Assembly (NCBI GenBank): GCA_902606075.1 | Contig: CACLEU010000004.1 | Span: 1-55,820, forward strand | Source: an uncultured Pelagibacteraceae bacterium | Lineage (GTDB): Bacteria; Pseudomonadota; Alphaproteobacteria; Pelagibacterales; Pelagibacteraceae | Direction of reading: 5' to 3' | Length of the DNA: 55,820 bases | Part shown: piece by piece, positions 2,330 through 3,500 of the stretch | Numbering within the stretch: the stretch's first letter is position 1 | Layout of the letters: the number at the start of each line of letters is the position of its first letter | Notes under the pieces: model-generated | Database searches by the model: none | Told to the model about the DNA's origin: nothing | The model's input: only the letters and a program-made list of their open reading frames with translations | Program-made: the position numbers and the translations under genes

Positions 2330-2374
2330 TGGTGAGCCCTGTTGGACTCGAACCAACGACCCATTCCTTAAAAG
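2330..2374 (-). pseudogene. tRNA-Lys(TTT) 3'-half fragment (candidate att site)
   Basis: 45 bp identical to 3134-3178 of the intact tRNA-Lys; identity stops just past the anticodon loop. Confidence 0.9.
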
Positions 2375-2420
2375 TAGTCAATACGACGTGAAGTTCCCTA
2401 CTTTTGGAAGTTTTTTATGG

Positions 2421-2507
2421 TGTGCAAATTATGTGCACAAAAATTGGGTTAGTTTTATGGAGTCTTTTTAAAAGTATGCACACTTTTTTGCACACTCTGT
2501 GCACACC
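2421..2507. repeat. TGCACA-type iterons (candidate arm-type sites), cluster 1
   Basis: TGTGCAAATTATGTGCACA (2421-2439) and ATGCACACTTTTTTGCACACTCTGTGCACACC (2476-2507); motif starts 11-12 bp apart. Confidence 0.75.
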
Positions 2508-2586
2508 CATGTAATCTTGCTTAAATTAATTGGTGTGTTCAATTGCTTGTAGAAGCATCATTTCTTAATGGATTTATTAGTAGTAG

Positions 2587-2952
2587 TTAGCCACTTTTCA
2601 TTTCTAACAGTTTATAAAAGCAATTATTATTATAAAAATCTCCATCGATGACTTCACTAAAAAAAAAGTATATAAGTTTACATGAGTAAAGTCTTCCATG
2701 ATACGTGTAAAAAATTAGTATTAATATAAAACAAATAAGTAAAAAGATATAAACACCTGCCATAGATTTTTTTTCACTAATTTCTTTAGACTCATTAGGT
2801 GCACCACAACCGGGACAAGTTTCAGCAAGAACAGAAATTCTTTTTTTACAAGATTTGCATTTAATTAATTTGCTTTTTTTTTGGGGGCCTTCTTCTAAGC
2901 CAAGTTCTATTCTCCAATTTTGATCTCTATCATTTTTATTTTTTTTTGACAC
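2587..2952 (-). CDS. Small zinc-ribbon protein with a TM segment, unknown function
   Basis: 121 aa; KCKSCKKRISVLAETCPGCGAP double CxxC ribbon followed by hydrophobic segment VYIFLLICFILILIFY. Confidence 0.65.
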   Translation of the reverse strand: MSKKNKNDRDQNWRIELGLEEGPQKKSKLIKCKSCKKRISVLAETCPGCGAPNESKEISEKKSMAGVYIFLLICFILILIFYTYHGRLYSCKLIYFFFSEVIDGDFYNNNCFYKLLEMKSG

Positions 2953-3045
2953 ACCAGATAACTAATAAATTTAACGATTATTCTACACTTAATTAAAGAA
3001 ATTAATAAGAATAAAAAAACCAGTATTATCTATCAAATTTCACTA

Positions 3046-3066
3046 TGTGTGCACAGAATGTGCACA
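3046..3066. repeat. TGCACA-type iterons, cluster 2
   Basis: TGTGTGCACAGAATGTGCACA, two copies 11 bp apart. Confidence 0.7.
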
Positions 3067-3133
3067 AAAAAAATCAACATTTTTAAAAAAAGGTTTTTAC
3101 ACACTGAATAATAAGGTTGGTTTTATTGGTCTA

Positions 3134-3209
3134 TGGTGAGCCCTGTTGGACTCGAACCAACGACCCATTCCTTAAAAGGGAATTGCTCTACCAACTGAGC
3201 TAAGGGCCC
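3134..3209 (-). tRNA. tRNA-Lys(TTT)
   Basis: Cloverleaf GGGCCCT/AGGGCTC acceptor (one G-U), anticodon arm ATTCC-CTTTTAA-GGAAT, GGTTCGAGTCC T arm, encoded CCA. Confidence 0.95.
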
Positions 3210-3382
3210 ACATATCTTTGCATAGATACTATAATTATAATAAATGCAAAGAAGATGTTTATATAGTAAATAAACCTTTATTTTTCAACACAAAATAAAT
3301 CTATAAGTACACTTTTAATTAACAAAAACGTACAGTTATTTTAACTGTGTAATTTTGCACAAGGAAAGGTATGCAAGATTCT

Positions 3383-3402
3383 ATGCACATTTTGTGCACA
3401 CC
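3383..3402. repeat. TGCACA-type iterons, cluster 3
   Basis: ATGCACATTTTGTGCACACC, two copies 11 bp apart. Confidence 0.7.
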
Positions 3403-3458
3403 GAAATAGAATCGGTTTTATTTTGCTGTAAATACGTAAAATTTAATGTGTACACTAT

Positions 3459-3500
3459 CTTAAAAGGGAATTGCTCTACCAACTGAGCTAAGGGCCCACA
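3459..3500 (-). pseudogene. tRNA-Lys(TTT) 5'-half fragment (candidate att site)
   Basis: 42 bp identical to 3171-3212, covering the anticodon loop to the tRNA 5' end plus 3 bp. Confidence 0.9.

Follow-up and report, generated by a model that had tools for sequence, protein, structure and literature searches.

In the open-licence literature searched, the closest described counterpart of the locus analyzed here is tRNA-dependent lysogeny, reported in 2024 in mBio for actinobacteriophages, including the mycobacteriophages Fionnbharth, Gabriela and Gaia, and Gordonia phages (PMC10865867). A phage of this type destroys the tRNA-Lys-TTT gene of the host at a core of about 10 bp and makes up for the loss with a tRNA that it encodes itself; that work left open how far this mode extends beyond actinobacteriophages and how it relates to integration of the canonical kind at tRNA genes (PMC10865867). 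For integrase-less DNA flanked by attachment sites, the nearest precedent is CIMEs, i.e., decayed ICE or IME that keep attL and attR, and their accretion (PMC5704250). According to published descriptions, phage satellites (PICI, PLE, PICMI and VEIME) bring an integrase and excision factors of their own (PMC10803314), and tycheposons measure 4-200 kb and possess a tyrosine recombinase (PMC10872708).

The window, i.e., the whole 55,820-nucleotide stretch of DNA that was analyzed, belongs to the SAR11-type genome G000, an assembly of 37 contigs that total 825 kb, with an estimated completeness of 76%. The segment 2375-3466 is probably a non-autonomous tRNA-dependent integrative element that brings its own replacement tRNA and receives an integrase in trans from a phage. 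It shares with tRNA-dependent lysogeny a short core in the anticodon loop (tRNA-Lys-TTT itself included), a host gene that is not rebuilt, an element-borne complete tRNA of the isotype of that gene, and putative arm-type sites around the core. Unlike the systems described under that name, it is 1.1 kb long, encodes neither an integrase nor phage genes, resides in a SAR11-type alphaproteobacterium and retains, next to the intact tRNA, a second arm that looks canonical. Because the tyrosine integrase that characterizes tRNA-dependent lysogeny, which is encoded in the phage contigs L061 and L060 discussed below, is missing from it, the element is not a strict member of that class, although the mechanism would work alike. 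Its likeness to CIMEs and tandem accretion lies in an att-flanked integrase-less segment at a tRNA hot spot that integrase-bearing elements use as well (PMC5704250). CIMEs keep attL and attR; in the window, both host halves are displaced, the right end matches a phage arm near the core and the left end matches no known phage core. In contrast to CIMEs, the element carries a whole tRNA and its relatives are phages. Small size, variable cargo, chromosomal site-specificity and apparent phage dependence are common to the element and the satellites, from which it differs by the lack of an integrase; the marine streamlined host, the border tRNA gene and the variable cargo are common to the element and the tycheposons, from which it differs in its length of 1.09 kb and the lack of a recombinase. 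The tRNA-dependent mode appears to be used by marine podoviruses as well as by very small passengers of SAR11-type bacteria that have no integrase.

Structure of the tRNA-Lys locus

The locus consists of an M48-family metalloprotease gene (1497-2315, forward strand), a displaced 3' half of tRNA-Lys (2330-2374, reverse strand; the attL side), a 121-aa ORF, an intact tRNA-Lys(TTT) (3134-3209, reverse strand), a displaced 5' half (3459-3500, reverse strand) and tgt, the gene for queuine tRNA-ribosyltransferase (3549-4661, reverse strand). The protease gene is also the neighbor at both empty and occupied sites of relatives, and tgt is a conserved neighbor in SAR11 loci. The three tRNA segments, which were already recognized in a sequence-only reading of this DNA, are confirmed by repeat search, ARAGORN and Rfam (RF00005, 72 bits for the intact gene). 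They are connected by two perfect direct repeats, 2330-2374 with 3134-3178 (45/45) and 3171-3212 with 3459-3500 (42/42), which rank first and second among the direct-repeat families in the first 7 kb, where no other perfect repeat of that length occurs. The 42-bp identity, initially assigned to the 5' half as a whole, stands, with the qualification that it comprises 39 tRNA bases (3459-3497) and three shared flanking bases, ACA. In the same vein, the 8-bp overlap of the halves, CTTAAAAG, combines the 7-nt anticodon loop, as first described, with a coincidental extra base: in related elements, the right-hand copy starts with G or A. Given that the base preceding TTAAAAG on the right is C, G or A depending on the element and on the left is the host C, the exchanged core is confined to TTAAAAG, which makes up the 7-nt anticodon loop (left copy at 2368-2374, from comparison of the junctions across the family), in agreement with the anticodon-loop crossover proposed in the sequence-only reading. 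Since the element and the target share the loop only, neither junction rebuilds tRNA-Lys; both hold half genes only, as is characteristic of tRNA-dependent integration.

From left to right, the insert contains a left end (A-left, 2375-2510) with GTGCAC arm-type repeats; the cargo ORF (2587-2952, reverse strand), which encodes a 121-aa protein with a zinc ribbon and a hydrophobic, probably membrane, segment; an inner arm (A-right, 3035-3133) that adjoins the intact tRNA and whose inverted GTGCAC repeats form an inverted repeat with 2465-2506; and a right module (B, 3213-3458) that extends from the intact tRNA to the right junction and includes GTGCAC arm sites at 3365-3402. The cargo protein shows a weak match to Zn_ribbon_3, below the cut-off, and the PHROGs that it matches are of unknown function. 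The inner arm is 76-86% identical among seven loci, L104 being divergent in the alignment. The right junction (attR, element arm and core), GTGTACACTATCTTAAAAG at 3448-3466, which leads up to and through the core, is identical over its 19 bp in the prophage L042 and in L104. Repeats of the GTGCAC type occur in three places (2420-2507, 3047-3070 and 3365-3402), one set beside each tRNA segment; the element holds five of the six TGTGCACA palindromes of the whole window, two of these in A-left, and six of its seven copies of GTGTGCA. A promoter-like site, TAAACA-16-TATAAT (3234-3261, reverse strand), lies about 25 bp upstream of the intact tRNA; it is the best of seven consensus matches, the number of which is not above that in shuffled sequences. 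The ORF list contains no integrase ORF in 2375-3466, and the sole integrase-family match of G000 is on another contig (C7). No second tRNA-Lys is found among the tRNA-like matches of this incomplete draft genome, which is at most suggestive of an essential role of the carried tRNA-Lys after integration.

A family of elements in SAR11 genomes

In the closest matches to the locus (L038-L041), a single intact tRNA-Lys is located between the M48 protease gene and tgt, i.e., the site is empty, which defines the insert as 1,092 bp and the original gene as the sum of the two halves. A search of 399 genomes of the genus with the right-hand segment identifies G321, G383 and G215, and a genome_contigs scan adds three SAR11 assemblies and one Cellvibrionales bin. 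The full three-copy structure is present in six further SAR11 genomes (L097, L098, L099, L101, L102, and L104 with L263, the last on two contigs), in the shared order of 3' half, left end, cargo, inner arm, intact tRNA, right module and 5' half. The inserts of this family span 1.1-4.3 kb, with left ends of about 165 bp, inner arms of about 100 bp and right modules of about 250 bp conserved around differing cargo, namely MORN repeats, a coiled-coil protein, an M48-like protease and small secreted or membrane proteins. No family element contains an integrase; a search of 15 genomes for integrases, which had no positive control, yields no match. Among the 399 genomes, 12 have a displaced 3' half and 5 a displaced 5' half. 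Thus, a mobile element devoid of an integrase, as the sequence-only reading had it, recurs in independent genomes, and the empty, singly occupied and integrase-bearing versions that it had proposed to look for in relatives are all found.

The right module of the window is 87-90% identical to those of L097, L098 and L104, 63-76% to those of L099, L101 and L102, and 53-57% to those of phages. In three pairs (window-L104, L097-L098 and L099-L102), the identity of the right module reaches 89-94% whereas that of the host tgt DNA is 71-73%, so that this module moves between species; the left end behaves in the same way across hosts (79-88% identity in the seven loci compared). These values show that the ends of the element spread horizontally. 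The B modules outside phages form their own groups, 85-94% identical to each other in distant hosts and 51-66% identical to phage B, and this separate grouping implies that they spread without the phage. There are two exceptions: about 48 bp at the end of the module in L101 and L100 coincide with phage L235, and 19 bp at its end in the window element and L104 coincide with the prophage L042. The terminal bases ahead of the core read GTGTGCAGTTTATTAAAAG in L099, L101, L102 and L100 and likewise in the phages L061 and L235.

A right module is present also in a Cellvibrionales MAG (UBA1854; L100, 4290-4700), where it is 100% identical over about 200 bp to that of SAR11 L101 and adjoins a tRNA 5' half and genes resembling ybgF-pal-tolB; a gap of Ns separates it from a gamma-type tRNA-Lys fragment. 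A recent cross-class transfer might account for the identity of L100 and L101, the N gap leaving the proof short.

Phage relatives and a putative mode of integration

Three viral contigs (L061, L235 and L060) contain, in this order, tRNA-Lys, a GTGCAC-rich arm, an attP that includes the core only, and a gene for a tyrosine integrase of about 400 aa. The latter matches the PHROG integrase and, in L061 and L060, PF00589 above the cut-off; these two contigs also encode a terminase. The comparison with phage attP sites that the sequence-only reading had suggested thus reveals the same TTAAAAG core. The attP of L061, GGTGTGCAGTTTA-TTAAAAG-TAACTTGCACACC, is an imperfect inverted repeat around the core. 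As these phages display the architecture of tRNA-dependent lysogeny, the window element is most likely an integrase-less relative. A podovirus-like prophage, L042 (G111), ends with an intact divergent tRNA-Lys, an arm of about 290 bp, GTGTACACTATCTTAAAAG and the host 5' half; its left end was not located, the assembly being without the M48 side. The site is also used by another phage family, of the canonical type; its contig L066 contains M48 and the 3' half and encodes an integrase with 35-38% identity to those of the first group.

Searches of an isolate phage collection with the element, the prophage-end DNA and the L061 integrase return unrelated tRNA matches only, or none. Among the viral contigs, an exact scan for GTGTACACTATCTTAAAAG gives no match, a looser attP pattern is unspecific (22 context matches, none convincing), the composite attP and the left-end arm have 0 matches in the viral_contigs scans, and the right module retrieves nothing useful; a circular form of the element is not found with the composite attP in viral_contigs.

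Two observations concern the tRNA region of the phages. In L042 (2745-3125), a 126-aa protein encoded beside the tRNA shows weak, sub-threshold likeness to the replication-associated REP_ORF2-G2P family; a search started with this protein gives no match. In the viral contigs L235 and L234, the phage tRNA-Lys is 80% identical to the host gene, is recognized as tRNA-Lys(TTT) and adjoins the same attP core; this unusual tRNA could reveal what selection keeps in the phage copy.

Integration of the window element would proceed as follows. An integrase bound to the GTGCAC arms would exchange strands in the anticodon loop of the host tRNA-Lys, the tyrosine-recombinase exchange at the 7-bp TTAAAAG splitting the host gene into two displaced halves, and the carried tRNA-Lys(TTT), with its own upstream region, would replace the lost function and supply lysine tRNA. 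The enzyme would most likely come, in trans, from a related podovirus of the pelagiphage-like kind in which tRNA, arm and core have the same layout. We infer that a phage integrase acts in trans, that the element moves as one unit and that the carried tRNA is functional. Action of one phage integrase on both ends is unproven: the left core flank differs from the phage P' side, and the left end of the window is without the P' core sequence TAACTTGCACACC and has mainly an arm site in common with the phages. A circle of the whole 1.09-kb element would carry the junction ...CACTATCTTAAAAGTAGTCAATACGACG. If, in contrast, two tandem elements were involved, an 804-bp circle would carry CCATTCCTTAAAAGTAGTCAATACGACG leading leftward into 3035-3133, the other product being a 288-bp circle.

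The element probably is a stripped-down passenger that borrows the integration machinery of phages. This suggests a route by which streamlined genomes that keep no gene for mobility might swap small gene cassettes. Loss of the insert, which would require exact restoration of the split gene, would be hindered by the carried tRNA. The attachment site also serves canonical elements with overlapping cargo, so that the transition between the two modes is directly testable. A more far-reaching reading, which we put forward tentatively and regard as slightly on the doubtful side, is that of a phage-dependent SAR11 family of integrase-less elements of about 1-4 kb, each with a complete replacement tRNA-Lys and moved by pelagiphage integrases, in which the double arms represent a canonical/tRNA-dependent hybrid that shows how one mode becomes the other, and the ends of which recently crossed between Alpha- and Gammaproteobacteria.

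Origin of the insert and other elements at the site

The same attB also harbors canonical integrase-less elements (L043, L044 and L254-L257), with left ends similar to that of phage L066. They share with the window element and its family the core and an overlapping cargo pool (e.g., L255 with L098 and L104) but rebuild the tRNA at one junction and displace a 3' fragment only, which is true also of L253; moreover, their left ends belong to another sequence family, with arms of the GTACAC type in L043 and L044. The expectation, voiced in the sequence-only reading, that a single insertion normally leaves one partial copy is valid for such canonical integration and fails for tRNA-dependent integration, which leaves both halves. 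One of these loci, L253 (G174), has the left end, the inner arm, the intact tRNA and the native upstream region but not the right module. With regard to the source of the intact gene, its 6:67 acceptor pair in L098 and L104 is swapped relative to both host halves, so that the gene was probably imported whole; in five of the seven loci, the intact tRNA equals the joined host halves, and import is not visible there (uninformative or converted). The perfect identity of the repeats, at first taken to argue for recent activity or gene conversion, does not in itself indicate recency, the gene being strongly conserved and the intact copy differing from the host halves in two related elements.

Two ways to arrive at the present structure were envisaged from the beginning, a pair of tandem elements that share the middle tRNA or one element of about 1.09 kb with a replacement tRNA. 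We consider it likely that A and B now move together as one unit. All non-phage SAR11 loci with the right module also have the left end and the displaced 3' half (4/4 in the 399 genomes and 7/7 SAR11 loci overall), and every non-phage displaced 5' half among the 399 genomes is accompanied by a 3' half and an A-left end; under independence, the probability of the co-occurrence in the 399-genome sample would be about 5e-9, a value that ignores phylogeny and shared ancestry. Together with phages that combine tRNA, attP and integrase, this makes the single element the best fit to the present form. Independent tandem insertion, the main alternative, in which a tRNA-dependent element or phage (B) separately entered the restored gene, was reduced to a 288-bp remnant by recombination between the tRNA 3' halves and does not co-move with A, appears rather unlikely: it accords with the three arm-site sets, one per tRNA segment, with A-left, A-right and tRNA without B next to a native upstream region in L253, and with the well-documented accretion of decayed ICE, IME and CIME at tRNA sites (PMC5704250), but not with the excess of A and B co-occurrence or with non-phage B groups that spread on their own, and deletion between the 5'-half repeats could turn A+B into the L253 arrangement. 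What the tandem scheme does fit is the likely origin of the unit: as the left end and the inner arm also occur in the canonical L253 at the same site, A+B probably arose by the accretion of two parts, one a canonical element and the other a tRNA-dependent end.

Decay of a prophage, whereby an L042- or L061-like tRNA-dependent phage inserted once and an internal deletion left the ends and the tRNA, is highly improbable. The identical tRNA-arm-core order and the 19-bp identity with the L042 junction are what it would predict, yet the cargo is not phage-like and is common to other elements at this site, the conserved left end has no phage match, and parallel deletions to identical endpoints would be required in several genomes. 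An assembly or amplification artefact, or plain tRNA duplication by homologous recombination, has practically no chance of being the explanation; although the draft assembly is in 37 contigs and estimated to be 76% complete, the same joints occur at the same base in six further assemblies, and relatives have empty sites. This independent recurrence refutes both variants and, together with the empty relatives and the 12 and 5 genomes with displaced halves among the 399, also rules out chance. The empty sites contradict a three-copy structure common to all relatives, which, like an artefact, was named at the outset as grounds for rejection.

Apart from these questions, the site accommodates a variety of DNA. 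L253 (4290-6539) is a mosaic of a GTGCAC-family left end, a Sel1-repeat gene nearly identical to that of L043, an internal GTACAC-type end and a second GTGCAC arm set, which suggests that ends and cargo are shuffled between element families. An insertion of another kind is found in L047 (1548-2909; G084), where M48 and tRNA-Lys are separated by a tryptophan-synthase-beta-like gene (453 aa) and a displaced half of the tRNA is not detected. A putative secreted coiled-coil family (...GKTLLKSLSKKSLTKKETISFL...) is carried as cargo by both tRNA-carrying and canonical elements (L098, 5168-6442; L104, 2727-3317; L255, 5350-6717). Finally, the canonical integrase-less element L044 (3399-5550; G026) encodes an EcoRI-type restriction endonuclease (PF02963, E-value 2e-102) and a type II methyltransferase, i.e., a 2.2-kb defense cassette in a SAR11 genome.
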